Source of the DNA: Adhaeribacter aerolatus | GTDB lineage: Bacteria > Bacteroidota > Bacteroidia > Cytophagales > Hymenobacteraceae | NCBI RefSeq assembly: GCF_007991635.1 | Contig: NZ_BJYS01000001.1 | Coordinates: 372,001 to 436,000, forward strand | Length of the DNA: 64,000 nt | Direction of reading: 5' to 3' | Part shown: piece by piece, positions 5,730-64,000 of the stretch | Position numbering within the stretch: position 1 is the stretch's first letter | Layout of the letters: each line of letters opens with the position of its first letter | Made by a program: the position numbers and the translations under genes | The notes under the pieces: generated by a model | Told to the model about the DNA's origin: nothing | The model's database searches: none | Seen by the model: only the letters and a program-made list of their open reading frames with translations

Positions 5730-7706
5730 ATGCAAAAACGTTTACTCTTACCTTTTTTTCTGCTGTTTTTTATGAAAGCCAATGCCCAGGATAGCGGGTT
5801 TGCTTTTGGCCAGATAAGCCTCCCGGACCTTCAGATGAAGGTTTACAACCCGGATTCATCGGCCAGCGCCTTGGTTTTACAGGAATTCGGCGAGTCGCGC
5901 ATCGACAATGACAATGATTATAATTTATTGCACGATTATCACGTAAAAATAAAAATTCTCAGCAGCCAGGGCTTTGACCAGGCTAATATTCAGGTGCCGC
6001 TTTACAAACAGAACGGTAAAACCGAGAAAGTATCACGGATTCAGGCTTCTACGTTTAACCTAGTTAACGGAAAATTAGAAGAAACCAAGTTCGATAGCCG
6101 TAAAACATTTACCGAAAACAAAAATAAATACCTGGATTTGGTAAAGTTTACTCTGCCCAATATTCAGGTGGGCAGTATTATTGAGGTGCGCTATACGCTG
6201 GAATCGCCGTTTATTTTCAATTTTAAACCGTGGGAGTTCCAGGCCGATATTCCGAAAATCCACAGCGAATACTGGGCAAAAATACCCGGCAATTACCACT
6301 ACAATATGACCCTGCGCGGCACGCAGAAGCTGTATAAGCAAGATTCTGAAATTATTAAAGATTGCTTTACCCCCGGCGGTGGCCGGAAAGCAGACTGTGC
6401 CTTGTATAAATTCGCGATGCAAAATATTCCGGCTTTTGTGGAAGAAGAATATATGACCGCTAAGAGCAACTTCTTGTCCGGTGTTTTTTTTGAGTTAAAG
6501 GAAGTGCATTATTTTGATGGCCGCAAAGAAAAACTGACTAAAGAATGGAAAGATGTGGACCTGGAAATGCGCAACGATGCCAAGTTTGGCACCCAGCTAC
6601 GCAAAGGCAAAGAGGTGTTCCGCGACCATTTAACACCATTACTGGCCACCGAAACCGATTCGCTGCAAAAAGCCCGGAAGGTTTTCGACTTTATTAAGGG
6701 GTGGTATAAATGGAACGACACCTATGGCAAGTTTAGCGAGCTGGGCATTAAGAAAGCCTTCGACAGTAAAACCGGTAACGTGGGCGATATTAATTTATCG
6801 TTAATTGCCGCCTTAAATATGGCCGGCTTTAAAACCGAGCCGGTTATTCTTTCTACCCGCGAGAATGGTTTACCCATCGATATACACCCGGTTATCAGCG
6901 ATTTTAATTATGTAGTAGCCCGGGTTAAAATTAACGGCAAAAGCTACCTGCTCGATGCTACCGATCCATTTGTGTCGTTTGGCATGGTACCCATTCGCTG
7001 CCTCAACGGCAAAGGCCGCGTGTTTCCCGAAAAAGGCCCCTCGTCCTGGCTGGAAATTGTACCTACCGATAAATTAAAGCAAACCACTTACATGGACCTG
7101 AGCCTGCAACCCGATGGCAGCTTTAAAGGCAAAGTAGTAAGCTCGACCTTAGGGTACGATGCCTTGCAGGAGCGCAAGCGCATTACTTCTTACAACAACC
7201 ACGACGAATACATCGAAGCCCTCGACGAAAAATGGAGTAAAATTAAAATTCTGAAATACGACATTAAGAATCTGGAAACGCTGGACCAGGCCCTGTCACA
7301 AACCTTTGAGGTAGAAATAGAAGGCTTCGATAATTTAAATAAAAATAAGCTGTTCCTGAATCCTTTTTTCCTGGAGAACTGGGAGAAGAACCCGTTTACG
7401 GCCAAGGAGCGCACCTACCCGGTAGATTTGGGCGCGCCCATCGAAACCATGTTAACCATTAACCTGCAATACCCCACCGAATTCCAGTTGGGCGGCTTGC
7501 CTGCGCCAATTACCCTGGCACTACCCAACGGTGGCGGCCGGTTTATGTTTCAGGTGCAAAGTTTAGGAGATAAAGTGGTGCTCAACAGCCTTATCTCGCT
7601 AAGCAAACCGGTTTACAGTCCCGAAGAATACGGCTACCTGAAAGAGCTGTTTAGCAAAATTGTGCAGTCTTACCAAACCAACCTGGTATTTAATAGAAAA
7701 TCGTAA
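5730..7706 (+). CDS. DUF3857 protein with inactive transglutaminase-like domain
   Basis: 658 residues with a signal peptide (MQKRLLLPFFLLFFMKANAQ), so probably periplasmic. The first half is a DUF3857 beta-rich domain, followed at about 305-410 by a transglutaminase-like fold. The canonical GDC catalytic motif reads GDI here (G352-D353-I354), and the His segment is also altered (SDFNYVVARV), so it is probably not a cysteine-dependent enzyme. The LLDATDP motif is kept. It overlaps the next gene by one base (TAATG), so the two are co-translated. The physiological role of these proteins is unknown. Confidence 0.82.
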   Translation: MQKRLLLPFFLLFFMKANAQDSGFAFGQISLPDLQMKVYNPDSSASALVLQEFGESRIDNDNDYNLLHDYHVKIKILSSQGFDQANIQVPLYKQNGKTEKVSRIQASTFNLVNGKLEETKFDSRKTFTENKNKYLDLVKFTLPNIQVGSIIEVRYTLESPFIFNFKPWEFQADIPKIHSEYWAKIPGNYHYNMTLRGTQKLYKQDSEIIKDCFTPGGGRKADCALYKFAMQNIPAFVEEEYMTAKSNFLSGVFFELKEVHYFDGRKEKLTKEWKDVDLEMRNDAKFGTQLRKGKEVFRDHLTPLLATETDSLQKARKVFDFIKGWYKWNDTYGKFSELGIKKAFDSKTGNVGDINLSLIAALNMAGFKTEPVILSTRENGLPIDIHPVISDFNYVVARVKINGKSYLLDATDPFVSFGMVPIRCLNGKGRVFPEKGPSSWLEIVPTDKLKQTTYMDLSLQPDGSFKGKVVSSTLGYDALQERKRITSYNNHDEYIEALDEKWSKIKILKYDIKNLETLDQALSQTFEVEIEGFDNLNKNKLFLNPFFLENWEKNPFTAKERTYPVDLGAPIETMLTINLQYPTEFQLGGLPAPITLALPNGGGRFMFQVQSLGDKVVLNSLISLSKPVYSPEEYGYLKELFSKIVQSYQTNLVFNRKS

Positions 7707-61472: not shown

Positions 61473-62411
61473 TTATTTATAATATCCGGAGGGCCTGAAA
61501 GTAAACTGTTTGCTAAAATCCTGAAGTTCATCGGTTAAGCTTACGGCCGGATAAACCGAAACAGCGCTTAGCTTATTGTTTGGATTAATAAATAAGGTCC
61601 GGGATTTCCGATCCTGTAGGATAAACAGCATTTCCAGGTTGGGGTAAATATCCTTAACTGCATCGGCTACATCCATTATGCTCAGGTTTTTATCTACCAA
61701 ATTAAACACCCCCGGTGTCAGGTTAATATTTATCAAATTTGCCAAATCGCGGCCTACTTTGTCGATGTGTACGAAAGCCCGCTGCTGCAAACCACTCCCC
61801 TGCACGGTAATCCGGTTGGTAAAATGGGCGTCGAACATAAATTTATTTATAACCGCATCGAAACGCAGACTGCGGTTGTAGCCATACACGTTGCCGCACC
61901 GGATAACATAAGTTTGCATACGGTCGGATAAGCGGCTAATCATTTTTTCGCCGTTGTGCTTAGATATACCATAGTAGGTACGCGGTTGCGGCGGCGTATC
62001 TTCTTCAATTTGCTCTTCTGAAGCACCGTATACCGAACTGGAACTTAAATATACCACTTTCTGCACCTTGCTGTTTTCCAGGGCATAGCTCAATTCGGCC
62101 GAGCCCCAATGATTTACCTGCTCAAACATATGCGGATCGTCGTTAGAGAAAGTGGTAAGCACTTTGGCGGCTAAATGATAAACCACGTCTACTTCGGCAA
62201 TTACCTTGCGTAGTTTATACGAGTCCAGAATATCGCCCAACACAAACTTAATGCGCTGATCAGGTAATTTATTATGCCCTAAAAAGAGGTTAAAATTTTT
62301 CCGGCTTAGGTTATCGTAAATAATTATTTCGGTTACGGCCGGGTCTTGGAGGAGTTGATGGGTAAGTTCGGTGCCGATATAGCCGGCACCGCCTGTTATT
62401 AGTATCTTCAT
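61473..62411 (-). CDS. NAD-dependent epimerase/dehydratase (SDR family)
   Basis: 312 residues from ATG 62411 (MKILITGGAGYIGTELTHQL); a longer frame would extend into cysH. Extended SDR features: GGAGYIG nucleotide loop, VYLSSSSVYG with the catalytic Ser, and YYGISKHNGEKM with the YxxxK pair. Acts on a nucleotide-sugar in most family members; substrate unknown. It begins 2 bases after the cysH stop, so it is translated with it. Why a sugar enzyme shares the sulfur operon is unclear. Confidence 0.9.
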   Translation of the reverse strand: MKILITGGAGYIGTELTHQLLQDPAVTEIIIYDNLSRKNFNLFLGHNKLPDQRIKFVLGDILDSYKLRKVIAEVDVVYHLAAKVLTTFSNDDPHMFEQVNHWGSAELSYALENSKVQKVVYLSSSSVYGASEEQIEEDTPPQPRTYYGISKHNGEKMISRLSDRMQTYVIRCGNVYGYNRSLRFDAVINKFMFDAHFTNRITVQGSGLQQRAFVHIDKVGRDLANLININLTPGVFNLVDKNLSIMDVADAVKDIYPNLEMLFILQDRKSRTLFINPNNKLSAVSVYPAVSLTDELQDFSKQFTFRPSGYYK

Positions 62412-62413
62412 TC

Positions 62414-63091
62414 TTATTTTTGAATCAGTTGGGTATGCAGGCCGCACTCGGTTTTGTTGGTACCAAACCAGCGGCCGCTGCGGTCATCGAGCAGCGCGTT
62501 TACATCTACTTTCCGGGTGCAAGGCTCACAGCCAATGCTCATGTACCCTTCGCCTTCCAGCGGGTGCTTGGGCAATTTAAATTCCCGGATATAATCGTAA
62601 ACCATTTTGCTCGTCCAGCCCAGCATGGGGTGGAACCGGATAACACCGTTGGGCGCTTTTTCTTCGCGCCGCATTTGCGCCCGCACTTTGCTCTGGTCGC
62701 CGCGTACGCCGCTAATCCACACATCAAAGCTAGCCAGAATAGGCTCTAAGGGCTGAATTTTATTTAAGTAGCAGCAGTAATCCGGATCAGAAGTAAACAG
62801 CAACTGGCCATTGGCATCGCGCTGCTGGTTACGGGGCACCGCCGAGTACAAATCGGTAATATGTAAGCCCAGCATATCTTGCACCTGCTCCCGGAAACTC
62901 AATGTTTCGGGGAAATGGTAACCCGTGTTTAAAAAATAAACCGGCGTTTCGGGCGCTACCCGGCTAAGAATATGCAGCAAAGGCATACTGTTGGTTTGCA
63001 GGGAGGAAGAGGCAAATATTTTTAAGCCCCGTTCTTTGTACACATCCAAATCCTGCTTAATTTCTGCTACGAGCGTTTCGAAATTATTCAT
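62414..63091 (-). CDS. cysH: Assimilatory adenylylsulfate / phosphoadenylylsulfate reductase
   Basis: 225 residues. Reduces activated sulfate to sulfite with a thiol donor. It has the four cysteines of the [4Fe-4S]-type enzyme (C106-C107 and C188-x-x-C191) and the catalytic cysteine in KTECGLH (C216). This suggests APS rather than PAPS as substrate. Other motifs: FLNTGYHFPETL and ISGVRGDQSKVRA. Second gene of an operon led by a rhodanese gene, with a leader that looks like a cysteine attenuator. Confidence 0.95.
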   Translation of the reverse strand: MNNFETLVAEIKQDLDVYKERGLKIFASSSLQTNSMPLLHILSRVAPETPVYFLNTGYHFPETLSFREQVQDMLGLHITDLYSAVPRNQQRDANGQLLFTSDPDYCCYLNKIQPLEPILASFDVWISGVRGDQSKVRAQMRREEKAPNGVIRFHPMLGWTSKMVYDYIREFKLPKHPLEGEGYMSIGCEPCTRKVDVNALLDDRSGRWFGTNKTECGLHTQLIQK

Positions 63092-63179: not shown

Positions 63180-63497
63180 TCAGTATTTCGGTACCGAAGG
63201 GTCGATCTCATCGGACCAAGCCAGGATACCACCTTTTAAATTATATAAATTGGTAAAACCGTATCTCGATTCGAGGGCTGCAATGGCGTTGCCGCTGCGG
63301 GCACCGCTTCTACAATGCACCACTACTTGTTTGTCGCGCGCAATTTTATCGGTGTTGGCTTCTACCTGCCCCAGCGGAATCAGTTCGCCTTGTAAGTTGG
63401 CAATCTGGTACTCGTGCGGTTCGCGCACATCAATTAATTGAAAGTCGGCTTTCTCGTCTATCAGTTTTTTCAACTCCTGAACGGTAACTTCTTTCAT
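63180..63497 (-). CDS. Single-domain rhodanese (sulfurtransferase)
   Basis: 105 residues, one rhodanese domain with the active-site loop HCRSGARSGNA (C62) and LIDVREPHEY at the start. Moves sulfane sulfur between thiols in the cytosol. First gene after the cysteine leader; 88 bases upstream of cysH. Probably handles persulfide made during sulfur assimilation. Confidence 0.93.
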   Translation of the reverse strand: MKEVTVQELKKLIDEKADFQLIDVREPHEYQIANLQGELIPLGQVEANTDKIARDKQVVVHCRSGARSGNAIAALESRYGFTNLYNLKGGILAWSDEIDPSVPKY

Positions 63498-63553: not shown

Positions 63554-63584
63554 CAAAAAAAGCCTCCCCGCATACGGAGAGGCT
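63554..63584 (-). terminator. Attenuator terminator of the rhodanese-cysH operon
   Basis: On the minus strand the 5' arm AGCCTCTCCG (63575-63584) pairs with CGGGGAGGCT (63561-63570), 10 bp with one G-T pair and a 4-base loop, followed by seven T. It lies between the cysteine leader and the rhodanese start, 57 bases before the ATG, so it acts as a premature stop. Confidence 0.85.
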
Positions 63585-63641
63585 CTATTCCTATATAAAT
63601 GGCTAGTATTCTAAATCACACCGACCATAAGCCTTTCCGTA
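63573..63641 (-). promoter_or_regulatory. Antiterminator pairing within the cysteine leader
   Basis: On the minus strand TACGGAAAGGCT (63630-63641, codons 24-28 of the leader frame) can pair with AGCCTCTCCGTA (63573-63584), the 5' arm of the terminator: 11 of 12 bases, one A-C mismatch. The two structures exclude each other. It starts about 14-23 bases downstream of the cysteine codons, so a ribosome stalled there leaves it free, while one at the stop covers it. Confidence 0.75.
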
Positions 63642-63712
63642 CACGGCACAGCCATGCAACAGCAACAAGTTGCGGGCATCATGGGTGTAGGTAAAAGGTT
63701 CTGCGTCTGCAT
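63611..63712 (-). CDS. Cysteine-rich leader peptide, 33 residues
   Basis: ATG at 63712-63710, TAG at 63613-63611. The peptide starts MQTQNLLPTPMMPA and holds T-C-C-C-C-M at 15-20, with a further Cys at 24. Four consecutive Cys codons (TGT TGC TGT TGC) are very rare by chance. It follows a promoter by a short leader, precedes a terminator, and is upstream of cysteine-pathway genes. It is too short for standard gene finders. Likely role: a sensor of Cys-tRNA level through ribosome stalling. Confidence 0.75.
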   Translation of the reverse strand: MQTQNLLPTPMMPATCCCCMAVPCTERLMVGVI

Positions 63713-63731
63713 TATTTGTTCTTTATTCGCA

Positions 63732-63739
63732 CAAAGCTA
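63732..63739 (-). promoter_or_regulatory. Bacteroidota -7 element for the leader-rhodanese-cysH operon
   Basis: TAGCTTTG on the minus strand matches TAnnTTTG. Transcription would start near 63725, about a dozen bases before the leader ATG. Confidence 0.6.
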
Positions 63740-64000
63740 AGTACTAACTTTTAATTAAAAAAATAAGTGCCGGATTATTTAACTCAACAAATATGATGCT
63801 GAAAATATTCCTTTGGCGGCTATCTTTTCTTTTAATTGCTTAAATAGCTAAAAGGTATACCATTCTGCGTTAAATAAGTTTAATATTTTTAGGTAAAACC
63901 ACTAAATAATTTAAACATTCTGCCTTCACCTGGCAGTTAATTAATTTTACAAATAAAACCACCGTTTAACAAAGAAGATTTGTTGTACCTGAAAGGTTCG
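63740..64000. other. AT-rich end of the window
   Basis: No gene, hairpin or repeat recognised. The gene that ends or starts beyond the window cannot be seen. Confidence 0.5.

Follow-up and report, generated by a model that had tools for sequence, protein, structure and literature searches.

Introduction

The trp, his, leu, and ilv leaders of Proteobacteria are the classical examples of amino acid attenuation. In these systems, a short leader frame with a run of codons for the end product is combined with an intrinsic terminator and with an antiterminator that excludes it. Leaders of the trp and ilv type have also been described in Actinobacteria, according to excerpts of PMC1262725. A 2010 survey stated that, to its authors' knowledge and leaving ermC aside, Proteobacteria and Actinobacteria were the only groups in which leader-peptide systems were established prior to the Firmicutes case that it presented (excerpts of PMC2965389). 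A transcriptome study of Flavobacterium points to leader-peptide attenuation upstream of amino acid operons, and the excerpts of that paper do not name cysteine (PMC9723704).

Two described systems involve cysteine. First, by comparing genomes, Seliverstov et al. (2005) predicted leader candidates with runs of Cys codons upstream of cys operons in Actinobacteria (excerpts of PMC1262725); the preliminary description of the locus that we analyze here also mentions cysteine-rich leader peptides for actinobacterial sulfur genes. These candidates share the short Cys-run frames with our locus but, in the same excerpts, are without conserved terminator hairpins. Second, the poly-Cys leaderless short ORFs of mycobacteria (Canestrari et al. 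2020) act on translation, according to excerpts of PMC9031893 and PMC13236596. As in our locus, contiguous Cys codons lie in a short upstream frame, and cysteine is proposed to be sensed through the speed of the ribosome. The mycobacterial control is on translation, whereas our locus has, judging from its sequence, an intrinsic terminator and a segment that is complementary to it.

The preliminary description knew of no established case with this layout in Bacteroidota. In the open-licence literature, as far as titles and the beginnings of abstracts go, we likewise found no paper on a cysteine attenuator from Bacteroidota. Surveys by Lyubetsky and co-workers reportedly may touch on attenuators in Bacteroidetes.

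Results

Layout of the leader locus

The window is the whole stretch of 64,000 nucleotides that we analyzed, from Adhaeribacter aerolatus (genome G000), a member of the Hymenobacteraceae in the order Cytophagales. Its features are listed in Table 1. The promoter element, the 33-codon frame with Cys codons at positions 16-19 and 24, the terminator with its seven T, and the rhodanese, cysH, and epimerase genes are all where the preliminary description placed them. On the minus strand, the leader begins with an ATG at 63712 and ends with a TAG at 63613-63611; Cys 24 is at 63643-63641.

Table 1. Features of the window locus and positions of related serial loci
Feature	Position	Strand	Basis or remark
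-7 promoter element TAGCTTTG, Bacteroidota type	63732..63739	-	Sequence
Leader ORF MQTQNLLPTPMMPATCCCCMAVPCTERLMVGVI, 33 codons (interval including stop)	63611..63712	-	Sequence; G005 and G001 have leaders like it
Putative control codons, four consecutive Cys (16-19)	63656..63667	-	Cys 17-19 invariant in 11 aligned leaders
Candidate region 1 AACCTTTTACC, would pair with region 2 without a ribosome	63690..63700	-	Predicted fold
Region 2, putative 5' half of antiterminator; core TACGGAAAGGCT at 63630-63641	63629..63646	-	Complementarity and folding
Intrinsic terminator hairpin, -18.9 kcal/mol	63560..63585	-	Sequence and fold
Region 3, 5' arm and loop of terminator hairpin, putative 3' half of antiterminator	within 63560..63585	-	
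Terminator U tract, seven T	63555..63561	-	Sequence
Rhodanese-domain gene	63180..63497	-	Pfam PF00581
cysH, phosphoadenylyl-sulfate (or adenylyl-sulfate) reductase	62414..63091	-	NCBIfam NF002537, 218 bits (cut-off 154)
NAD-dependent epimerase/dehydratase family gene, last in apparent operon	61473..62411	-	Also after cysH in six other Adhaeribacter
cysQ, 3' end, cut by window edge; precedes leader	63937..64000	-	TIGR01331, 279 bits on L152:5941-6705
Serial leader pairs before cysM in Adhaeribacter	L146:8162-8478, L147:8605-8922, L148:8286-8602, L149:6254-6571		Second leader reads CCCCCAC
Second locus of window genome, serial pair before NirA-type reductase	L184:1690-2035 (G000:C25)		

The consensus of the -7 element in Bacteroidota is TAnnTTTG. 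In the window, TAGCTTTG lies 19 nt ahead of the leader ATG, which suggests that the mRNA has a short 5' untranslated region; the mycobacterial frames, in contrast, are leaderless, according to the excerpts cited above. Known families did not account for the leader. Across the whole window, no Rfam match reached its gathering score (the best sub-threshold match had 25.8 bits, as compared to 54), and the NCBIfam leader-peptide models gave no families for three of the leaders at E values of up to 10, so we ruled out both a known RNA family and a known leader-peptide model.

Might the hairpin act on translation instead? The closest cysteine system known to us does so (PMC9031893 and PMC13236596, in excerpts), and if the window locus worked in the same way, a stalled ribosome would open a structure that hides the next start codon and the hairpin would not be a terminator. 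The leader and its Cys run would look alike under either mechanism. However, the hairpin is shaped like an intrinsic terminator (-18.9 kcal/mol and seven T), it does not contain the ATG of the rhodanese gene, and the U tract ends 57 nt before that ATG. Also, terminators start 24-42 nt past the leader's stop codon in 26 of 29 leaders, and in tandem arrays what follows the first hairpin is a further leader and not a protein-coding gene. We consider translational attenuation to be very unlikely.

Another alternative is that the hairpin does no more than terminate cysQ constitutively, given that this gene is directly upstream on the same strand, and that the Cys frame is a chance ORF. Against this, about 350 nt separate the end of cysQ from the hairpin, and both the promoter element and the leader lie in this interval.

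Tests against chance

Frames with four Cys codons do arise by chance: we examined 71 distinct runs of four Cys codons in the window's genome, and 14 of these fall within bounded frames that start with ATG and have no more than 60 codons. But among those 14, only the window leader is followed by a strong terminator by our script's rule (the next best had -7.0 kcal/mol). One of the other 13 frames, before a siroheme reductase gene, is followed by a hairpin with an interrupted U tract, which the script missed and which we saw by eye.

As the preliminary description reported, TACGGAAAGGCT (63641-63630) is complementary to AGCCTCTCCGTA (63584-63573), in the 5' arm of the terminator, at 11 of 12 bases. 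The helix can extend further, by pairing of CCGTGTACGGAAAGGCTT (63646-63629) with AGCCTCTCCGTATGCGG (63584-63568). The complementarity between the segment after the Cys run and the terminator arm was equalled in just 4 of 500 dinucleotide shuffles, and in 6 of 500 when we repeated the test, and the folding of the leader region had a z score of -2.67, with 1 of 200 shuffles as good. The pause or protector hairpin (1:2) of the window did not stand out, as 433 of 500 shuffles were as good; in three of the other 11 leaders tested, 6-14 of 500 were.

The census of the window's own genome, together with the reverse-strand and shuffle controls at cysM and at the siroheme reductase gene (sir), above which Cys-run leaders recur (see below), led us to rule out a chance frame. 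The complementarity beyond that of shuffles also argues against a chance ORF behind a cysQ terminator, and we view that alternative as extremely unlikely.

A predicted switch between terminator and antiterminator

We propose that the window locus is, very probably, a cysteine-sensing, ribosome-mediated transcription attenuator. The support for this reading is good and is comparative in kind. Transcription would start just ahead of the leader frame. If Cys-tRNA is charged, the ribosome would pass codons 16-19 and reach the stop codon, where it would occupy the stretch between region 2 and the terminator; with region 2 unable to pair forward, the hairpin at 63585-63560 would form and RNA polymerase would stop. 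If cysteine is scarce, the ribosome would stall in the Cys run and region 2 (63646-63629) would be free to pair with the terminator's 5' arm and loop, which would allow transcription into the rhodanese-cysH-epimerase genes. For window RNA that is not being translated, the folds predict the terminator as the default.

We examined this proposal by folding the RNA with the ribosome's position masked. The footprint of a ribosome extends about 15 nt upstream; downstream, we masked 15 nt past the A-site codon, which is an assumption. For the window leader, the predicted probability of the terminator was 0.01, 0.08, 0.03, or 0.98 with the ribosome on Cys 16, 17, 18, or 19, and it was 0.99 with the ribosome at the stop codon and 0.95 with no ribosome. 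In other words, the antiterminator is predicted for a ribosome on Cys 16, 17, or 18 and the terminator for a ribosome that is on Cys 19, at the stop, or absent. If the RNA ends before region 4, the antiterminator is predicted with the ribosome on Cys 19 as well.

These folds agree with the earlier proposals that the terminator and antiterminator exclude each other and, for the first three of the four Cys codons, that stalling would leave the segment free. A further proposal, that a ribosome at the stop codon would cover the segment, needs to be modified. Region 2 ends 14 nt ahead of the stop codon, so a ribosome there would only touch its end and would otherwise sit in the loop of the antiterminator. 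This should have the same effect as covering region 2, and the terminator is the predicted outcome with a ribosome at that position. The placement of region 2 inside the leader frame is a difference from classical attenuation. Otherwise, the frame, Cys run, terminator, and putative antiterminator have the classical geometry that the preliminary description recognized, with the switch itself predicted by folding only.

Across leaders, an equilibrium switch was predicted in 13 of 37, as compared to 18 of 1110 versions with the segment shuffled; these 37 leaders were chosen after inspection, and related leaders are not independent. The other 24 leaders had no equilibrium switch in the masked folds. 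These may rely on co-transcriptional folding or antitermination, or they may have no such mechanism, and they are the main weakness of the attenuator reading. Also, the terminator was not favored without a ribosome in 5 of the 37 leaders. In the complementarity test, 11 of 12 Adhaeribacter leaders had a match between the sequence after the Cys run and the 5' arm of the terminator that was reached by 8 or fewer of 500 shuffles. With leaders from several families, 18 of 29 had a match that was reached by 25 or fewer of 500 shuffles, and 11 failed.

Conservation within Adhaeribacter

All seven of the Adhaeribacter genomes that we examined keep the frame, the Cys run, and the terminator between cysQ and the next gene. 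(An eighth genome, G006, is 78% complete and is outside this count.) The next gene varies: it is a stand-alone rhodanese in the window's genome and in G005, and a MoeB-rhodanese (MoeZ-like) protein in G001. In G002, G003, G004, and G007, the leaders are at the same place and are followed by cysM, a JAMM-type protease, a ThiS-like protein, MoeZ, cysH, and the epimerase (we assigned the names JAMM and ThiS partly by eye). This full operon of the sister species resembles the CysM-CysO-Mec cysteine pathway of mycobacteria. The leaders of G005 and G001 are also carried by Adhaeribacter rhizoryzae DK36 and Adhaeribacter aquaticus DSM 16391. A further leader in G001, MILPLKDLTCCCCMQVCNC, precedes a gene that is weakly similar to O-acetylhomoserine/O-acetylserine sulfhydrylase.

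The window's rhodanese is 67-75% identical to the C-terminal part of the MoeB-rhodanese proteins of five relatives; by this similarity, it corresponds to the C-terminal domain of the MoeZ-like protein that other Adhaeribacter encode, but as a protein by itself. It looks like the MoeZ domain that was left after the loss of cysM, the JAMM protein, ThiS, and the MoeB half (compare L150 and L146).

When we aligned 11 leaders from the genus, only the start codon and three Cys codons (17-19) were invariant across leader types. Between the window's genome and G005, a one-base indel after the Cys run shifts the reading frame and changes the peptide, and the RNA segments are unchanged. Covarying antiterminator pairs, which the preliminary description had suggested as a check, were absent within the genus: among the 11 aligned leaders, neither the antiterminator nor the terminator had a compensatory pair with both sides changed. 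The bases of the genus alignment do pair in 89.0% and 94.9% of cells, which is above slid versions of the alignment, but without covariation. The pairing is instead supported by its constant geometry and, in some other families, by antiterminator letters that change along with those of the terminator and remain complementary, as in G249 (CGGAAAGA vs. TCTTTCCG) and ahead of the reductase of G369 (AAGGAAGGCT).

Leaders before cysM and siroheme reductase genes

We then considered genomes from other families, of which f1-f22 belong to the window's order and f23 and f26 only to its class. Frames with CCC or CCCC followed by a terminator, which had been suggested as something to look for upstream of sulfate assimilation operons in Cytophagales, turned up in several families.

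First, 10 of 311 genomes of the order contain orthologues of cysM (E values of up to 1e-95). A short frame with CCC or longer is present within about 600 nt upstream of cysM in nine of the ten, as compared to none of ten on the reverse strand and 8 of 1000 shuffles. Each of the nine frames has a terminator behind it. These nine include two from Adhaeribacter, and three have GTG or TTG starts; they are from families f1, f9, f14, and f18. The longest run, MVKSVMNLMGNAKAAAACCCCCCSAPSPYRKEIPIHCA in G249, has six Cys. A CCCCC leader precedes cysM in both G369 and G380, and G369 also has a nine-Cys leader, MNCFNNCCCNCCCCCEIQQLKEGFIRTD, before its siroheme reductase gene (stretches L186, L158, and L187 are from these two genomes). 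The sole exception, with no CCC frame upstream of cysM, is G207, where two serial Cys leaders stand ahead of the siroheme reductase gene instead. Scans of two families found cysM orthologues in 3 of 18 and in 1 of 11 genomes, all of which were already counted.

Second, NirA-type siroheme reductase had a match in 151 of 301 genomes. Solved relatives of this protein are annotated both as nitrite reductases and as sulfite reductases. Our sample for this gene comprised 30 loci and 60 stretches that were hand-chosen for their spread across families; one stretch, L371, is without upstream DNA, which leaves 89 regions from 88 genomes. A Cys leader with a terminator was found in 13 of the 89 regions, as compared to none of 89 on the reverse strand and 2 of 445 shuffles. 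The other 76 regions had no Cys leader with a terminator by the script's rule. We judged two of the 13 matches (in G324 and G261) to be chance. By family, the 13 matches are 3 of 6 in f1, 1 of 3 in f4, 1 of 8 in f5, 3 of 6 in f14, 2 of 16 in f15, 2 of 12 in f18, and 1 of 11 in f19; none of the 27 regions from f11, f16, f20, and f22 had such a leader.

Six of seven genomes from family f23 (L196-L201, but not L203) have a terminator 17-33 nt ahead of the reductase start. Ahead of the terminator are short frames with mixed Met and Cys codons, which we picked by eye; two of these six leaders pass the complementarity test. (The six are counted among the 29 leaders of that test and are outside the 37 leaders of the switch test.) The mixed frames are possibly joint sensors of methionine and cysteine. 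In f26, none of 14 loci had such a leader.

Four of the siroheme reductase leaders (L329, L333, L339, and L342), which come from families f4 and f14, have in common the motif (K/R)RCxCWxWCC, in which Trp is included. This suggests either a constraint on the peptide or a mixed sensor of Cys and Trp.

The motif is also a hint in favor of a different view of the poly-Cys peptides, namely, that they are sensed by their chemistry (binding of metal, redox, or arrest of the nascent chain) and not through the supply of Cys-tRNA; runs of three to six Cys could bind a metal. On the other hand, little but the start codon and the three Cys is held constant between leader types, and past the Cys run a frameshift distinguishes two close species. 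In addition, the first genes after the leaders are cysM, a rhodanese or MoeZ followed by cysH, a gene similar to O-acetylhomoserine/O-acetylserine sulfhydrylase, or a sulfite or nitrite reductase, although many of the loci were found by searching for these same genes. Sensing by peptide chemistry thus seems very unlikely to us as compared to attenuation by the supply of Cys-tRNA.

Putative attenuators in series

Paired leaders, each with its own terminator, are present at ten loci in eight genomes from four families. Five pairs precede cysM (in G002, G003, G004, and G007 from f1 and in G211 from f9), and five precede the siroheme reductase gene (in G000, G003, and G007 from f1, G207 from f5, and G389 from f18). 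In G002, the two leaders before cysM are MKIKNNLFTGIYAAACCCCARLVPAERFAV and MNKQLIFNFAACCCCCACPWEGLDAPAC, with close relatives in G003, G004, and G007. The pair in G000 is a second locus in the window's own genome, and its second terminator has an interrupted U tract.

Of 27 first or only leaders, 12 have the -7 consensus in the 60 nt ahead of them (16-28 nt from the start codon), and none of the ten second leaders has it; the background is 0.043 per 60 nt. Because the consensus precedes first leaders and not second ones, we suggest that the pairs have one promoter and two tests in series, so that RNA polymerase would face two cysteine tests. Tandem attenuators are known from the mgtCBR operon of Salmonella, in which a single mRNA leader contains two short ORFs that affect transcription, according to excerpts of PMC3641672. 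Those ORFs respond to two different signals (ATP and proline), whereas both members of the pairs described here are coded for Cys.

Searches beyond known genes

A covariance model built from nine leaders, with the leaders of G000 and G005 held out, gave the window leader a score of 53.6 bits. However, a stretch of G380 without a Cys leader (L157) scored 52.2 bits with the same model, so the score alone is weak evidence. An order-wide search with a covariance model had matches in 232 of 390 genomes. Among the matches listed, we read 19 loci: two had Cys leaders (L158 and L171), and the rest, including L157, looked like ordinary terminators or coding sequence. Of 11 stretches around further matches, we read seven (all but L189, L191, L193, and L194); Cys leaders were seen in L184, L186, L187, and L190 and not in L185, L188, or L192. 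The leaders that these matches led to include ones ahead of cysM and ones ahead of the NirA-type siroheme reductase gene.

We also used pattern searches. An order-wide gapped pattern allowed too short a gap and missed the window leader itself, so its lack of leaders says nothing. A pattern scan by family, across 204 genomes, had 14 matches, of which we judged four to be leaders. Finally, a scan of the genome collection returned 64 stretches, 46 of them inside long frames by the script's rule. The remaining 18 comprise three Adhaeribacter leaders, three Firmicutes leaders, one candidate from Mucilaginibacter, and 11 that we took for chance.

The three Firmicutes leaders (L074, L090, and L102) contain TCCCCM and, when the DNA and translations are read by eye, are followed by terminator-like hairpins. 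Again by eye, such leaders precede cysteine synthase in an uncultured Firmicutes bacterium and in Enterococcus innesii, and a MetQ-like binding protein in Fructilactobacillus sanfranciscensis. The candidate from a Mucilaginibacter metagenome-assembled genome (L131, around 6650-6749) is the leader MSTLKFLQQKNSIRCYAQITTCCCCMCRC, ahead of genes that we named by eye as a porin-like gene, a substrate-binding protein, and an ABC permease; no strong terminator was seen there.

Discussion

The window locus is of a known kind, classical attenuation, with which it shares the short frame with a run of end-product codons, the intrinsic terminator, and the putative antiterminator that would exclude it. It differs in that the amino acid is cysteine, in that the organism belongs to the Bacteroidota, and in that two devices for a single amino acid can follow one another. 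The combination of cysteine with intrinsic terminators, the phylum, and the serial pairs with a single signal are what we consider to be new. The window leader is not an isolated case, as might have been supposed from the preliminary description: it belongs to a group that recurs in Cytophagales, in part as serial copies, and that perhaps reaches a second order.

A broader view, which we judge to be about equally likely to be right or wrong, is that some of the Cytophagales, and perhaps also a second order of the class, control cysteine synthesis (cysM or cysH, and sulfite reductase) through leader peptides and not only through a protein regulator; that the serial pairs of several families multiply the chances of passing and thereby give a steeper response; and that the TCCCCM leaders ahead of cysteine synthase in two Firmicutes suggest more than one origin.

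A cysteine sensor that is read by the ribosome could control sulfate assimilation without a protein factor. If this is correct, then cysteine would join the amino acids that are under true transcription attenuation, and the serial pairs would be a natural system for asking what two similar attenuators in a row achieve.
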